Of a DNA stretch of 37,083 bases, positions 4,666 to 34,243 are shown piece by piece. This DNA comes from Candidatus Moraniibacteriota bacterium (GTDB lineage: Bacteria > Patescibacteriota > Minisyncoccia > Moranbacterales > JAPLXC01). Each line of letters opens with the position of its first letter. Within the stretch, counting starts at the first letter, position 1. The notes beneath the pieces are model-generated. The model was not told the DNA's origin. It did not search any database and saw only the letters and a program-made list of their open reading frames with translations. The stretch covers positions 1 to 37,083 of the forward strand of contig JAPLXC010000007.1 in NCBI GenBank assembly GCA_026396275.1. The letters run 5' to 3'. The position numbers and the translations under genes were made by a program.

Positions 4666-4742
4666 TGGCGGACCTGACCGGATTCGAACCGGCGATCTTC
4701 TCCGTGACAGGGAGACGTGTTAGACCACTACACTACAGGTCC
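4666..4742 (-). tRNA. tRNA-Asp(GTC)
   Basis: Complete cloverleaf of 77 bases. Acceptor GGACCTG pairs with CAGGTCC; anticodon stem TCTCC/GGAGA encloses loop CTGTCAC with anticodon GTC; T-arm GCCGG-TTCGAAT-CCGGT. The CCA end is encoded, unlike most tRNAs in this window. It is the last gene of a unit that begins at the promoter at 5091-5119. Confidence 0.95.
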
Positions 4743-4751
4743 ATTATTTTT

Positions 4752-4801
4752 GGTGCGGGGGCGAGGCAGGGAGGCGTGATAGGCCGCTACACTAACGATC
4801 C
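4752..4801 (-). pseudogene. 5' tRNA half (Asp/Gly-like) with CCCCGCACC tag
   Basis: 4767-4801 read on the minus strand resembles the first 35 bases of tRNA-Asp (GGATCGTTAGTGTAGCGG and onward, ending CTCCCTG in the anticodon loop). It then breaks and runs through CCTCGC into CCCCGCACC (4752-4760). There is no 3' half nearby. The next bases could supply a GCC anticodon (Gly), but the tag makes this uncertain. Confidence 0.6.
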
Positions 4802-4808
4802 GCTTTAA

Positions 4809-4914
4809 GCGGGGCAAGCAGGGAATTACTGGTTATTAAAGGGAGACGTGCCTGCCCCGTGAATCCGAGCCCTGCGAGGATTTTTTCGGGGTTAGGCCAC
4901 TACACTACGAGTCC
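4809..4914 (-). pseudogene. 5' tRNA half (Glu-like) interrupted by a hairpin in the D-loop
   Basis: Two tRNA pieces, 4891-4914 (GGACTCGTAGTGTAGTGG, then CCTAAC) and 4838-4850 (CACGTCTCCCTTT), join into a 5' half closely matching the neighbouring tRNA-Asp up to the anticodon loop; CTTT suggests tRNA-Glu(TTC). Between them lies a 40-base insert (4851-4890) with a CCCCG stem ending ACGGGGCAGG. After the second piece the sequence drifts and reaches CTGCTTGCCCCGC (4809-4821). No 3' half is found. Confidence 0.6.
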
Positions 4915-5013: not shown

Positions 5014-5090
5014 GGTGCGGGGTGAATCCTGTATAAACCAATTGCCTGCCCCGTGAATTCCAAAGGAATTTTACGGGGAGCTACCCTGGC
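5014..5090 (-). pseudogene. 5' tRNA half with D-arm hairpin insert and CCCCGCACC tag
   Basis: GCCAGGGTAGCT (5079-5090) looks like the acceptor and start of the D-arm of a tRNA. A 34-base insert follows (5045-5078): a perfect hairpin CCCCGT..AATTCC/GGAATT..ACGGGG plus CAGG. The tRNA-like sequence then resumes (CAATTGGTTTATACAGG, ATTCA; 5023-5044) and ends at CCCCGCACC (5014-5022). The promoter at 5091-5119 would start transcription at the first bases of this fragment. Confidence 0.6.
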
Positions 5091-5497: not shown

Positions 5498-5549
5498 CTA
5501 CCAGTCACGTGGCGAAGCTTTACGTGACTCCATCCCGCTGCGTAAAATT
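5498..5549 (-). pseudogene. Duplicate of the tRNA-fMet 5' end with D-arm hairpin
   Basis: The 22 bases at 5528-5549 are an exact copy of 5430-5451, covering the first 12 tRNA bases and ten upstream bases. The copy is then interrupted by a perfect GTCACGT/ACGTGAC hairpin (5504-5528), resumes as CTGGTAG (5498-5504), and diverges. It is upstream of the intact gene in the same transcript. Confidence 0.65.
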
Positions 5550-8219: not shown

Positions 8220-10484
<2,265 letters not shown>

Positions 10485-25044: not shown

Positions 25045-25147
25045 GATTGACCAAAAATTGGCGGAAGGGGTGAGATTCGTCCCGCACCTTTACCTTTTTA
25101 GACTCGTTCTTAATTTGCTATTTAATTCTTCTAACTGGTTTTTGATG

Positions 25148-25213
25148 CGGAAGAGGAGGGATTCGAACCCCCGAGGCCTTTGCAAACCTAACGGTTTTTC
25201 GCGACCCTGCACC
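25148..25213 (-). pseudogene. 3' half of a tRNA-Ser, tag GGTGCAGGG
   Basis: On the minus strand GGTGCAGGG (25213-25205) is followed directly by an anticodon-loop-like TCGCGAAAA, a variable-arm remnant, a good T-arm (GGGGG-TTCGAAT-CCCTC), the acceptor strand CTCTTCC and discriminator G. The 5' half is missing. The loop suggests anticodon CGA. CTCTTCC pairs perfectly with GGAAGAG of the 5' fragments at 25500 and 25557. Confidence 0.65.
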
Positions 25214-25224
25214 AAAAATGCTCG

Positions 25225-25287
25225 CGGAAGCGGGAGGATTCGAACCTCCGGTGCCCTTGCGGACACAACAGTTTTTCTCGACCCCGT
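25225..25287 (-). pseudogene. 3' half of a tRNA-Ser, tag TACGGGG
   Basis: TACGGGG is followed by TCGAGAAAAACTG, a variable arm TGTCC-gcaa-GGGCA, a perfect T-arm (GGAGG-TTCGAAT-CCTCC), acceptor strand CGCTTCC and discriminator G. No 5' half is attached. CGCTTCC fits the acceptor GAAAGCG of the fragment starting at 25605 in six of seven pairs. Confidence 0.65.
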
Positions 25288-25294
25288 AAGAAAG

Positions 25295-25381
25295 CGGAAG
25301 GGGTGAGATTCGAACTCACGGTACCGTTTCCGATACGACAGTTTTCAAGACTGTTCCCTTAAACCACTCGGGCACCCTTCC
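25295..25381 (-). tRNA. tRNA-Ser(TGA)
   Basis: 87 bases, complete, CCA not encoded. Acceptor GGAAGGG/CCCTTCC, anticodon stem ACAGT/ACTGT around CTTGAAA, long variable arm, T-arm GTGAG-TTCGAAT-CTCAC, discriminator G. It is flanked on its 5' side by four 5' tRNA fragments and on its 3' side by two 3' halves. Confidence 0.95.
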
Positions 25382-25388
25382 GCTTTTC

Positions 25389-25429
25389 TACGGGGCAAGC
25401 TGGTGCCTTACCATTCGGCGCAACCCTCC
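25389..25429 (-). pseudogene. 5' tRNA half ending CTTG, tag CCCCGTA
   Basis: GGAGGGTTGCGCCGAATGGT (from 25429) continues through a D-arm and anticodon 5' strand to CACCAGCTTG, then CCCCGTA (25395-25389). About 34 tRNA-like bases, broken in the anticodon loop. The isotype cannot be fixed; the acceptor does not match either 3' half well. Confidence 0.5.
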
Positions 25430-25436
25430 ATTTTTT

Positions 25437-25500
25437 GGTGCGGGGCAAGCCGCCTCATTCCTGCCTGCCGGCAGGTAGGCAACCACTCTGGCACTCTTCC
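25437..25500 (-). pseudogene. 5' tRNA-Ser half with D-loop palindrome, tag CCCCGCACC
   Basis: GGAAGAGTGCCAGAGTGGTTG (25500-25480, 21 bases) is interrupted by a near-perfect palindrome with core CCTGCCGGCAGG (25460-25479). It resumes as AATGAGGCGGCTTG and ends at CCCCGCACC (25445-25437). Its acceptor GGAAGAG and its tag both fit the 3' half at 25148-25213. Confidence 0.6.
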
Positions 25501-25510
25501 TTACTTAAAA

Positions 25511-25557
25511 GGTGCGGGATTCAAGACTGTTCCCTTAAACCACTCGGGCACTCTTCC
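25511..25557 (-). pseudogene. 5' tRNA-Ser half ending in the anticodon loop, tag CCCGCACC
   Basis: 38 bases from 25557 to 25520 match intact tRNA-Ser(TGA) except for one acceptor base (GGAAGAG for GGAAGGG), through the anticodon TGA and one further A. The sequence then changes abruptly to TCCCGCACC. Confidence 0.7.
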
Positions 25558-25562
25558 GCTCT

Positions 25563-25605
25563 ATACGGGACAAGCAGGTACGTTAAACCACTCCGGCACG
25601 CTTTC
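25563..25605 (-). pseudogene. 5' tRNA-Ser half, tag TCCCGTA
   Basis: GAAAGCGTGCCGGAGTGG (from 25605) continues TTTAACGTACCTGCTTG and then TCCCGTA. It sits at the predicted transcription start of this locus. The acceptor strand fits the 3' half at 25225-25287. Confidence 0.55.
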
Positions 25606-26301: not shown

Positions 26302-26329
26302 GCGCTTGGCAGGAATCGGATCCCACACC
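26302..26329 (-). pseudogene. 3' tRNA fragment, tag GGTGTGGG
   Basis: GGTGTGGG (26329-26322) leads into a T-loop-like TCCGATT, CCTGC and the acceptor strand CAAGCGC with G as discriminator. CAAGCGC is perfectly complementary to GCGCTTG of the 5' fragment at 26557. The intact tRNA-Arg lies between the two pieces. Confidence 0.5.
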
Positions 26330-26335
26330 TTTTTG

Positions 26336-26409
26336 CGTCCTCAAGAGGATTCGAACCTCCGGCCTTCGGCTCCGCAAGCCGACGCTCTATCCAGCTGAGC
26401 TATGAGGAC
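26336..26409 (-). tRNA. tRNA-Arg(GCG)
   Basis: 74 bases, complete, CCA not encoded. Acceptor GTCCTCA/TGAGGAC, anticodon stem TCGGC/GCCGA around TTGCGGA, T-arm GGAGG-TTCGAAT-CCTCT. The anticodon is GCG, whereas bacteria usually read CGU and CGC with ACG edited to inosine. Confidence 0.92.
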
Positions 26410-26476
26410 AAGAAAAGGTGAGGGACAAGCCTGCTTTGTTATAAGCAACTTTATCCCGCACTAAAGCGTAGCTTTT

Positions 26477-26557
26477 GGTGCGGGGCACACGCTCTACCTG
26501 CCCCGTAGTTTCCGATGTCGCATCGGAATACTTCGGGGTCCACTGAGCTACAAGCGC
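26477..26557 (-). pseudogene. 5' tRNA half with D-loop hairpin, tag CCCCGCACC
   Basis: GCGCTTGTAGCTCAGTGGA (26557-26539) and TAGAGCGTGTG (26496-26486) join into a perfect tRNA 5' half with complete D-arm. A 42-base insert separates them (26497-26538): a CCCCG hairpin whose centre TTCCGATG/CATCGGAA resembles 5338-5356, ending ACGGGGCAGG. CCCCGCACC follows at 26485-26477. Acceptor partner is at 26302-26308. Confidence 0.65.
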
Positions 26558-26561
26558 ATTA

Positions 26562-26684
26562 TTATTTTTTATGAATTAAACCTGCGACCTCCCCGTAGCC
26601 GCGAAGCATTCCTAAATCATAAGGACTGACTTTTGCTTTTACCAGAGGAATTATTCTGCCGTTGAAATAGCAGTAATTTGGCAT
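26562..26684 (-). pseudogene. Truncated class IV aminotransferase, 5' end only
   Basis: A 40-codon frame begins M-P-N-Y-C-Y-F-N-G-R-I-I-P-L-V-K-A-K-V and continues S-P-Y-D-L-G-M-L-R-G-Y-G, which looks like the N-terminus of branched-chain or D-amino-acid class IV aminotransferases (about 290 residues when whole). After R-G-Y-G the match stops; the following DNA TACGGGG-AGGTCGCAGG resembles a tag plus a tRNA-fMet T-arm piece, and the frame ends at TAA 26562-26564. The break appears to be a recombination with tRNA-derived sequence. The lysine that binds PLP is absent, so it cannot be active. Confidence 0.6.
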
Positions 26685-26690
26685 AAGACA

Positions 26691-27282: not shown

Positions 27283-29451
27283 ATGATTACTCTTGAAACT
27301 CCTCTCAAAAATCTCCCCCGCATCGGTCCGAAATATGTTAAAAACCTGAAAAAACTCGGCATCGCGACTGTCGGAGATCTGCTTTTCCATTTTCCTTTCC
27401 GCTATGATGACTACTCCAAAATCTTGCCGGTTTCTTCTTCTTCCCGGGGCGATACAGTAACCGTTGAGGGAGAAATCATTGAAAGCCGGACTACCCGCAC
27501 CTGGAAACGAAAAATGTTTTTGACTGAAATCCTGCTCAAAGATGATTCCGGAACTATCCGGGCTTTGTGGTTCAATCAGCCGTATCTGGCCGAAAACTTG
27601 ACTGAAGGAAAAAAGATCAGGATCAGCGGAAAAATAACAGGCGACGCCAGCGGACTTTACTTTTCCAATCCGGCTTGGGAACTGGCTTCGCGCGCTCCTA
27701 CTAACACCGGTCGGCTGGTGCCGGTCTATCCGGAAACTGAAGGCGTAACCTCGCGCTGGCTCCGCTGGCAAATCCAATTTCTCCTAAAGTTCAACTTTAG
27801 GATAAGCGATCCGGTACCGGAAAAAATTCTCAAGAAATTAAATCTTCCGGGAACAGACAAGGCCATAAATTACATCCATTTTCCCGACACACTTGACCAC
27901 GCTCTCGTCGCCCAAAAAAGATTCGCTTTCGAAGAAATGTTTTTGGTACAGCTTAAGTCCCTGCAAATTCGTTCCAGCTGGCAAAAAGAGCAGGCGGTAA
28001 AAATCAAATTTAATGAAAAGCTGATTAAGAATTTTGTAAAAAAACTTCCTTTCAAACTCACCGACGCCCAGCGAAAATCAGCTTTTGAAATCCTGAAAGA
28101 CCTCGAAAAATCCCGGCCAATGAACCGGCTGCTTAACGGCGACGTGGGATCGGGCAAGACAGTCGTAGCCGCCGTTGCTTCTTTGCAGGCGATTAACAAG
28201 GGATATCAAGTCGCTATTATGGCACCGACCGAGGTTTTGGCTAGGCAGCATTTTGATAGTTTTATTAAGTTATTCTCCAGTTACAAAATAAATATTGGAC
28301 TTCTTACAAATTCATATAAGATGATAACTTGTCATCCCGAACTTGTTTCGGGATCTAATAATAAGATGCTGAAACACCTGCCCGCATCGCTATGCGAAGC
28401 ATTGCAGGCGGGAGTTCAGCATGATACCAGAACAAATCTCCTCAAAAAAATCCAATCCAGCCAAATTAATCTTGTCATAGGCACTCACGCCCTTATTCAA
28501 GAAGATATCCGTTTCAAAAATCTGGCTTTAATTATTGTTGATGAACAGCACCGCTTCGGCGTCACCCAGCGGGCTTATTTGCAACAGAAATCTTCTGAAA
28601 TAAACGACGGGCTTCCGGAAAAAATCCCTCACTTCTTAACTATGACCGCCACTCCCATACCCCGCACTCTGGCTCTGGCTTTTTTTGGAAATTTAGATAT
28701 CTCAATCCTGGACGAAATGCCCGCCGAGCGCAAAAAAATAATCACCGGGATTGTCAATCCTGTTGAAAGAAATAAAACTTATGAATTCATTCGTGCTGAA
28801 ATTAAAAAAGGCCGCCAGTGTTTTATTATCCTGCCTTTAGTGGAAGAGTCAGAAATACTAACTGAAGTGAAAGCGGCTGTTCAGGAATATGAGCGGCTGT
28901 CCCGAGAAATTTTTTCTGATCTTAAGCTCGGCCTTATTCACGGCCGGCTAAAGGCCGATGAAAAGGAAAAGGTGATGCGGGAGTTTGCCGGGAAAAAAAT
29001 TGACATCTTGGTTGCCACTCCGGTTGTGGAAGTAGGAATTGACATTCCCAACGCCACCGCGATGATTATTGAGGACGCTGACCGCTTTGGATTATCCCAG
29101 CTCCACCAATTCAGGGGAAGAATCGGCCGGGGCAAATACCAGTCATACTGCTTTTTATTCACCAGCAGCAATTCTTCAAATGTCAGAGCAAGATTGAAGG
29201 CGCTGGTTGAAAGTGAAGACGGCTTTAAGATAGCCGAGAAAGATTTGGAACTTCGCGGTCCGGGAGAATTTTTCGGCACCCGCCAGTCGGGCCTTCCTGA
29301 CATCGCCATGGAAAATCTGGCTAACGTTCGCCTTATCCAAATCGCCCGCGAAGAAGCGCAGGAATTGCTTAAATCTGATCCGCCGTTAAAAAATTATCCC
29401 TACCTTAAAAAAGCTTTGCAAAAATTTGAGCAAGAAATTCATTTGGAATGA
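27283..29451 (+). CDS. recG: ATP-dependent DNA helicase RecG with palindrome-derived insertion
   Basis: Remodels stalled forks and Holliday junctions. 722 residues, slightly long. N-terminal wedge OB domain (about 55-135), helicase motifs G286-D-V-G-S-G-K-T293, M-A-P-T-E-V-L-A, D420-E-Q-H423, T-A-T-P-I-P-R-T, and the motif V region V-V-E-V-G-I-D-I-P-N with Q-L-H-Q-F-R-G-R-I-G-R-G. All are intact. Residues 347-384, between motifs Ia and II, are extra and read H-P-E-L-V-S-G-S and N-K-M-L-K then V-Q-H-D, the peptides made by a palindromic repeat. A second small palindrome encodes L-L-K-F-N-F-R-I (27782-27802). Start ATG at 27283, no Shine-Dalgarno. Confidence 0.95.
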   Translation: MITLETPLKNLPRIGPKYVKNLKKLGIATVGDLLFHFPFRYDDYSKILPVSSSSRGDTVTVEGEIIESRTTRTWKRKMFLTEILLKDDSGTIRALWFNQPYLAENLTEGKKIRISGKITGDASGLYFSNPAWELASRAPTNTGRLVPVYPETEGVTSRWLRWQIQFLLKFNFRISDPVPEKILKKLNLPGTDKAINYIHFPDTLDHALVAQKRFAFEEMFLVQLKSLQIRSSWQKEQAVKIKFNEKLIKNFVKKLPFKLTDAQRKSAFEILKDLEKSRPMNRLLNGDVGSGKTVVAAVASLQAINKGYQVAIMAPTEVLARQHFDSFIKLFSSYKINIGLLTNSYKMITCHPELVSGSNNKMLKHLPASLCEALQAGVQHDTRTNLLKKIQSSQINLVIGTHALIQEDIRFKNLALIIVDEQHRFGVTQRAYLQQKSSEINDGLPEKIPHFLTMTATPIPRTLALAFFGNLDISILDEMPAERKKIITGIVNPVERNKTYEFIRAEIKKGRQCFIILPLVEESEILTEVKAAVQEYERLSREIFSDLKLGLIHGRLKADEKEKVMREFAGKKIDILVATPVVEVGIDIPNATAMIIEDADRFGLSQLHQFRGRIGRGKYQSYCFLFTSSNSSNVRARLKALVESEDGFKIAEKDLELRGPGEFFGTRQSGLPDIAMENLANVRLIQIAREEAQELLKSDPPLKNYPYLKKALQKFEQEIHLE
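28321..28434. repeat. Nested palindromic insertion in recG
   Basis: ATCCCGAA (28334-28341) pairs with TTCGGGAT (28347-28354), and ATGCTGAA (28366-28373) with TTCAGCAT (28415-28422). Inside the second pair, replacing its usual short loop, sits another palindrome with CCTGCCCGC and GCAGGCGGG ends (28377-28412). The frame stays open through all three. Confidence 0.85.
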
Positions 29452-34173: not shown

Positions 34174-34243
34174 ACGGGGTATACCAACTTGTCCCGCACC
34201 ATCCCGCTAAGCGGGATTGGTGCGTGGATTCCGCCACACGCCC
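34174..34243 (-). pseudogene. 5' tRNA-Leu fragment with D-loop hairpin, tag CCCCGTA
   Basis: GGGCGTGTGGCGGAAT (34243-34228) looks like the acceptor and D-stem of a tRNA-Leu. A 35-base insert (34193-34227) forms a strong hairpin CGCACC-a-ATCCCGC/GCGGGATGGTGCG. D-loop-like ACAAGTTGGTATA follows, then CCCCGTAAA. No 3' half is present. Confidence 0.55.

Follow-up and report, generated by a model that had tools for sequence, protein, structure and literature searches.

Intact tRNA genes nested inside broken tRNA genes of the same anticodon in a Candidatus Moraniibacteriota genome and its relatives

The tRNA genes are among the most conserved genes. In a 37,083 nt stretch of DNA from a Candidatus Moraniibacteriota bacterium, referred to here as the window (positions 1–37083 of contig C7 in the genome designated G000, an assembly of 810 kb in 22 contigs), pieces of such genes are cut by palindromes, and the tRNA-Arg locus at 26302–26557 raises the question of what these inserts are and what became of the genes that they interrupt. 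An earlier note on this DNA had described six hairpins inserted in or near the D-loop of 5′ tRNA fragments. All six are present, all on the minus strand, in Arg (42 nt insert), Asp, Met, fMet-like, Ser and Leu sequences (re-measured coordinates in Table 1). The ending ACGGGGCAGG is, as described, common to the three inserts starting at 26497, 4851 and 5045, and the intact tRNAs found using ARAGORN have no such insert. What had been overlooked were the matching 3′ halves, the nested intact tRNAs, and the inserts in the anticodon, T and variable loops. The 5′ pieces are real but they are not isolated, as many have 3′ partners placed around an intact tRNA with the same anticodon. The outer, broken gene is referred to below as the shell.

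Table 1. Shell pieces, hairpin inserts, cassette arms and intact tRNAs of the nested loci in the window
Feature	Position	Strand	Remark
Shell tRNA-Arg 5′ piece: acceptor 5′ strand, D-stem, D-loop to GTGGA	26539–26557	-	
D-loop hairpin insert of Arg shell, 42 nt	26497–26538	-	CCCCG...CGGGGCAGG
Shell tRNA-Arg: D-loop end, 3′ D-stem, 5′ anticodon stem	26486–26496	-	TAGAGCGTGTG
Second hairpin insert in tRNA-Arg shell, anticodon arm	26455–26485	-	Paired in fold
Cassette left arm, within T-loop of Arg shell	26413–26428	-	Pairs with right arm in fold
Inner tRNA-Arg(gcg), intact	26335–26409	-	ARAGORN, Rfam; sole intact Arg(gcg) found
Cassette right arm, Arg shell T-loop	26321–26334	-	Pairs with left arm in fold
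Shell tRNA-Arg 3′ piece: T-loop remainder, 3′ T-stem, 3′ acceptor	26302–26316	-	ATTCCTGCCAAGCGC
tRNA-Ser(tga), intact, core of multiple nest	25294–25381	-	
Ser nest innermost 5′ piece	25400–25429	-	Pairing with 3′ partner imperfect by eye
Ser nest innermost 3′ piece	25224–25282	-	
Ser nest second 5′ piece	25480–25500	-	Acceptor GGAAGAG
Palindrome in D-arm of second Ser shell	25460–25479	-	
Ser nest second 3′ piece	25147–25205	-	Acceptor CTCTTCC, pairs with GGAAGAG
Ser nest third 5′ piece	25520–25559	-	Near copy of intact Ser 5′ half (40/41 bases alike)
Ser nest third 3′ piece	25060–25079	-	T-arm and acceptor truncated
Ser-like 5′ piece	25575–25605	-	No 3′ partner found
Asp shell 5′ piece	4892–4914	-	
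Hairpin in or beside D-loop of Asp shell	4851–4891	-	
Second Asp-like 5′ piece	4767–4801	-	Upstream of intact tRNA-Asp 4666–4742
Met-type shell 5′ piece	5079–5090	-	
Hairpin at D-loop start, Met-type shell	5045–5078	-	
fMet-like shell 5′ piece	5528–5540	-	
Hairpin after fMet-like 5′ piece	5505–5527	-	
Leu shell 5′ piece	34228–34243	-	
Hairpin in D-loop of Leu shell	34188–34227	-	

In the predicted fold of the Arg locus, the 3′ acceptor strand of the shell (26302–26316) pairs with the shell start at 26557. The D-loop insert folds at −22.1 kcal/mol (z −5.1), with none of 200 shuffles as good. The earlier note had held that removal of this insert restores a good 5′ half; the restoration stands on the match to intact relatives, given below, and not on folding, as the 30 nt half without the insert folds no better than its shuffles (z −0.2) and a restored D-arm is not shown in this way. 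No target duplication is visible at the 26497–26538 insert. Beside the locus on the minus strand (~26570–26690), a short truncated frame, which presumably resembles the start of a class IV aminotransferase, runs into tRNA T-arm-like sequence at 26573–26591, and weak matches to its peptide are found close to intact Arg genes in L181 and L188.

The 128 genomes of the order were searched with a pattern that matches the uninterrupted Arg gene, and with the reversed pattern as control, yielding 28 matches in 25 of the genomes and none in the control. G000, the genome of the window, has no match to this pattern. The sequence GGATAGAGC is uninterrupted in all 28 relatives, a continuity that was not imposed by the search pattern, and hence the flanks of the D-loop insert were once joined; the refuting condition set by the earlier note, relatives showing flanks that were never adjacent, thus fails. 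The anticodon is GCG in 20 of the 28. The joined pieces of the shell 5′ half are identical to the intact Arg of relatives at 29 of 30 positions and the 3′ piece at 15 of 15, whereas the inner Arg, using a gap-lenient alignment, shares 54/72 positions with the same genes and 65/73 with a free-standing Arg(gcg) next to recG in a MAG of Moraniibacteriota. The recG gene lies within ~1.5 kb of the Arg gene in five of 20 fetched relatives, adjoins it in a Nealsonbacteria genome (L116), and is ~0.7 kb from the Arg locus in the window, which is inverted relative to recG. Given these identities and the recG neighbourhood, the shell resembles the resident gene, and the inner tRNA-Arg a newcomer. The RecG protein of the window is at 47–51 % to proteins of Nealsonbacteria, Moraniibacteriota and Wolfebacteria, the nearest among the named matches listed, which marks the genome as of Patescibacteria type; a search for close relatives by way of recG gave at best 51 % identity. 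Both recG (27283–29451) and ligA (8220–10472) apparently encode proteins with in-frame extra stretches, and the stretch CHPELVSGS...QAGVQHD of RecG is one that we take to be a palindromic-repeat peptide.

The Arg locus is one of several nests in G000. The genome has 48 tRNA matches, and the 47 tRNAs found using ARAGORN in the fetched stretches cover all 20 amino acids. Approximately 11 of these 47, identified by reading and not blind, lie between arms with shell pieces outside, namely Ala(cgc), Val(tac), Gly(ccc), Ile(gat), Leu(caa), Leu(gag), Ser(tga), Ser(cga), Arg(gcg), Thr(tgt) and Pro(tgg), the Thr(tgt) nest with a 3′ shell piece only. Asp, Met and Val(cac) are represented by 5′ pieces only. 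Some nests are multiple. At the Ser(tga) locus (25060–25605) one intact tRNA lies amid four 5′ and three 3′ pieces, and L047:2078–2398 is a triple nest around Ala(cgc) that as RNA is predicted to form nested cloverleaf-like stems (−123 kcal/mol, z −5.5, 0/100 shuffles). Two other Leu shells of G000 (L054 near 940 and L049 near 2560) have hairpins similar to that of the Leu shell in the window, at the same D-loop site. To judge from their similar ends, the D-loop hairpins (CCCCG...CGGGGCAGG) and the cassette arms may be of one family.

The shell and the inner tRNA have the same anticodon in 14 of the 15 nests with a readable shell anticodon, a count that was not blind, the shells having been found partly by eye or by tRNA likeness. 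A sixteenth row typed for this test, L048, was omitted as a neighbour rather than a nest. The matching nests are Arg(tct), Gly(ccc) (two), Ser(gga), Lys(ctt), Arg(ccg), Leu(cag), Ile(gat) (two), Leu(caa) (two), Leu(tag), Leu(gag) and Ser(cga). The sole mismatch (L164, AAG versus TAG) is one base off, and the similar nest in genome G027 matches. The two nests of each Ile, Leu(caa) and Leu(tag) pair probably go back to a single event, which leaves about 12 independent nests.

The positions of the inserts in the cloverleaf were mapped using 47 junctions curated by eye, of which the 36 with a score of at least 12 were tested and the 11 lower ones dropped. Thirty-one of the 36 lie in or border the D, anticodon or T loop, compared with 34.8 % of random cuts (p ~3e-10), in a list that was not blind and where a few best matches are to the wrong tRNA and the junctions are not all independent. 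Seven well-mapped T-loop cassettes (the Arg of the window, G021 Arg, G016 Gly, G016 Ser, G104 Arg, G024 Arg and G009 Asn) break identically, after position 53 in the standard tRNA numbering that we applied, with TTCR lost and the shell resuming at 58; G016 Lys has the same break at a lower score. Because positions 54–57 are gone, excision between the breakpoints cannot restore the T-loop. Exact removal that restores the tRNA thus fails for the T-loop nests, while the D-loop hairpin alone would fit.

A loose criterion of 6-base arms barely exceeded the null (12/47, 11/41, 6/36 and 5/37 in four genomes against 12.1 %), and the counts across relatives therefore rest on strict arms, CCCCGCACC...GGTGCGGGG at 80–110 nt apart. 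Among the tRNAs of G000, a longest-stem test gave a modest excess (7/47 with at least 10 bases against a null of 2.9 %), and nhmmer profiles of half tRNAs were too weak, with 16 and 32 matches at E up to 1 and one each below 0.01. Strict arms were found at 48 places in 26 of the 128 genomes of the order and at none with the reversed-pattern control; arms with 18–48 bases between them occur at 9 places in 4 genomes. Fifteen of the 48 strict-arm palindromes hold a tRNA, exactly one each (the Ala and Val nests of G000, one in G009 and 12 fetched from relatives), and by reading all 15 have tRNA pieces outside the arms. When the flanks of 65 distinct strict palindromes, drawn from the searches at both arm spacings among others, were compared with 173 intact tRNAs, the inner one excluded, tRNA-bearing palindromes scored 24–69 and plain ones 18–25, except one at 61. 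The shuffled maximum of 26 was exceeded by 14 of the 15 tRNA-bearing palindromes but by only one of 50 plain ones, and this one (L113) adjoins an intact Pro tRNA. None of the tRNA-less strict-arm palindromes is located within a tRNA gene. In 13 of 15 tRNA-bearing cases the best flank match was to a tRNA for the same amino acid as the inner one; of the other two, L160 has a neighbouring Lys gene as confounder and L164 scores at noise level.

Three other strict-arm places were found in a sample of the phylum outside the order (145 genomes, G000 included). In G507 an Ile(tat) tRNA is nested in a shell with like acceptor and T-arm. In G605 (L308) an Arg(ccg) tRNA lies between strict arms with no recognisable shell, which counts against the rule; this tRNA adjoins a prepilin-like frame near the contig end. 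The third has no tRNA.

The elements have terminal inverted repeats and no coding capacity, as do MITE-like elements; no autonomous partner with matching ends was noticed within spans of up to about 600 bases. In G009 the same arms bound palindromes of 44–111 bases, several of them in frame in protein genes and located in long open frames such as a uvrA-like (L095) and a comF-like (L096) frame. Of 50 plain elements, 11 are flanked by a direct 4-base duplication, against 1.7 expected, and in this they appear to behave as mobile DNA. No target duplication was seen in the 15 strict tRNA-bearing elements, where the end 4-mers are unlike, mostly a TNNA-type at one end and a CNNG-type at the other; the end 4-mers of plain elements vary, with TNNA or CNNG types common. 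Strict arms also occur at the same place of a similar gene, apparently for a membrane protein, in G000 (L014:1406–1509) and in G002 (L066:1406–1509), a member of another family.

Three further ideas on how the elements find their sites or spread were rejected. Targeting of hairpin loops as a general rule was not borne out by the 50 plain palindromes, as the complementarity of their flanks did not exceed that of permuted flanks. A single element (G009, L113:412–522) does occupy the loop of a terminator-like hairpin that precedes tRNA-Pro(tgg), and the corresponding hairpin of G016 (L205) is empty. Copying of the interior from the target fails for plain elements, with interior-to-flank scores averaging 9.0 (permuted 8.7); for tRNA-bearing interiors the mean is 18.4 (permuted 11.2). 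A viral vector was sought in IMG/VR, where 27 stretches match the strict arms, none of the 27 with a tRNA and most resembling GC-rich chance matches.

Some loci were found in different states in different genomes. The Leu(tag) gene upstream of a gene that we read as rluD-like is intact in G009 and nested in G016, and G027 has a nest very similar to that of G016. Beside an Arg gene, the Lys(ctt) of the shell's type is intact in G104, and in G016 this type is broken around another type, which is found alone in G021 and G000; G009 also has the shell's type intact. The Ile(gat) nest of G000 (L052:749–823) recurs in G104 (L210:628–702), a member of another family, with nearly identical arm and 20-base spacer and the same junction, and being common to two families is either old or transferred. 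The arm sequence of this Ile cassette was found in one of 383 genomes of a class sample, G000 itself; G104 is outside that sample.

The nested tRNA architecture is well supported. Shell and inner tRNA have the same anticodon, relatives have empty sites, and the resident gene lies near its usual neighbour with an inner tRNA of a different type. We lean towards the reading that the shells are resident tRNA genes which were broken by palindromic elements and replaced by cassettes with the same anticodon. The palindromic elements would break resident tRNA genes mainly in the loops of the cloverleaf, and many of them would carry a complete tRNA gene of the same anticodon between inverted arms. Entry of such a cassette would destroy the resident tRNA and replace it in one step, making the event viable and hard to lose later. 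The dead shell would then decay and gain more hairpins, such as the D-loop hairpin at 26497–26538, the inner tRNA could be invaded in turn, producing Russian dolls, and the shell would finally erode, leaving a tRNA of foreign type at the old place. More tentatively, and with rather less confidence than an even chance would imply, we suggest that mobile tRNA-carrying DNA homes into the cognate resident gene, killing and replacing it at once; the cognate aim might come from sequence similarity or from survival, and a RAYT-like Y1 transposase may move the elements. As plain strict-arm elements do not enter tRNA genes, insertion aimed at tRNAs is not a general habit of the family.

A history in two steps, where a plain palindrome broke the tRNA gene and a tRNA of the same anticodon was later captured into its loop, for instance by recombination, and kept since function was restored, seems to us doubtful. 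It would account for nest arms that match each other beyond the shared CCCCGCACC core, like the arms of one palindrome, for the similar total length of tRNA-bearing and plain elements, and for the tRNA-less hairpins that shells also have in D, anticodon and T loops. However, its first stage is missing in the strict-arm family, no plain palindrome of which was found in a tRNA gene (the single high score of 50 comes from a neighbour), and the cell would have to live with a broken single-copy tRNA until the capture took place. Ordinary decay, with tRNA remnants in clusters littered by palindromic repeats and the same-anticodon nests as the leftovers of selection, is improbable. Palindromes are frequent in these genomes, protein genes included, partnerless 5′ pieces exist (Asp, Met and Val), and shells do decay (L164 and L159), but decay is hard to square with 15 of 48 strict palindromes holding exactly one tRNA, all inside tRNA pieces, with anticodon agreement in 14 of 15, with identical T-loop breakpoints in the seven well-mapped cases, or with the empty sites in relatives.

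It is very improbable that the shell still functions as a split or intron-bearing tRNA from which the inner tRNA and hairpins are excised before the halves are joined. Some archaeal tRNAs have inserts in several loops of one gene, as do the shells, whose halves keep complementary extensions, and the triple nest folds as nested cloverleaves. Nevertheless, removal cannot restore the T-loop nests that lack 54–57, some shells have lost stem pairing or one half, and the codon is already read by the inner tRNA. A self-splicing intron was likewise rejected, as only tRNA families, and no intron family, reach the Rfam gathering score in the window. The view of the earlier note, an element with the D-loop as its specific target, can hardly be right: palindromes do interrupt tRNA genes near the D-loop, many of them in it or at its 3′ border, and three Leu shells share one site, but inserts in anticodon and T loops are also common in the curated list and related strict-arm elements lie in protein genes and elsewhere. 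An artefact of assembling metagenome bins is equally hard to credit, as, though most genomes searched are fragmented assemblies, similar nests recur for Ile(gat) in G000 and G104, Leu(tag) in G016 and G027, and Pro(cgg) in G033 and G047.

The nests look like swaps for a foreign tRNA caught part-way, at the original place, the shell being what is left of the old gene. Should the cassette aim at the cognate tRNA, it would be a natural analogue of a self-rescuing gene drive, resting on an essential RNA gene ~75 bases long. The cassette would then drive in-situ turnover of bacterial tRNA genes, with the Russian dolls as the record, and the tRNA debris in these reduced genomes would be explained as well. 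In addition, tRNA finders will miss or misread nested loci.

A search of a collection of PMC papers found work on mitochondrial hairpin elements, Rickettsia palindromic elements and archaeal split tRNAs and, among the papers listed, no description of a tRNA nested in a cognate tRNA. REP elements have a constant GTAG tetranucleotide at their ends. The elements described here resemble REP/REPIN and RAYT systems in the inverted palindromic pairs around a short spacer and in the presence of Y1 genes, but the two Y1 genes of G000 are not flanked by the motif, a constant GTAG at the foot of the palindrome is absent, with varying end 4-mers, and there is tRNA cargo. Neither GGTGCGGG nor CCCGCACC was found in the 3.2 kb loci around the two Y1 transposase genes of G000. 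Among relatives that we chose, five rich in elements have 3, 7, 4, 7 and 6 Y1 genes and seven poor in elements have 1, 0, 0, 0, 1, 0 and 3, a lead that is confounded by descent.

Rickettsia palindromic elements lie in frame in protein genes and also in RNA genes. The likeness to them is in short palindromes in a reduced genome, in frame in protein genes (G009) and in RNA genes; here the host is different, the interiors are unrelated between copies, and some elements, with an entire tRNA inside, lie in a tRNA that has the same anticodon. Rickettsia palindromic elements are cited in PMC5799277. Mitochondrial repetitive or double hairpin elements and GC clusters are also mobile hairpins that tolerate or seek the loops of RNA genes, and are reported, among coding regions, mostly in rRNA genes, at variable sites (PMC2800124). 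They are not known to carry a tRNA or to replace a host gene. Integrative elements in tRNA genes likewise combine insertion with restored tRNA function, but the cassette at ~100–125 bases is too short for an integrase, the restoring tRNA comes entire from within the cassette, and the two broken halves remain on its flanks. Archaeal split and multi-intron tRNAs share the complementary extensions on halves and the inserts in several loops, but here the T-loop nests are not restorable and the inner tRNA is intact and has the same anticodon.

Two minor observations concern other tRNA loci of G000. The hairpin CCCCTCTGAAGAGCTCTGCAGAGGGG occurs three times around tRNA-Trp (L063, ~1050–1500), each time adjoining tRNA-like sequence. 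At L049:14336–14659 two Ser(cga) tRNAs are adjacent, one of them low-scoring (41.7 bits) and with its own arms and a 3′ piece.
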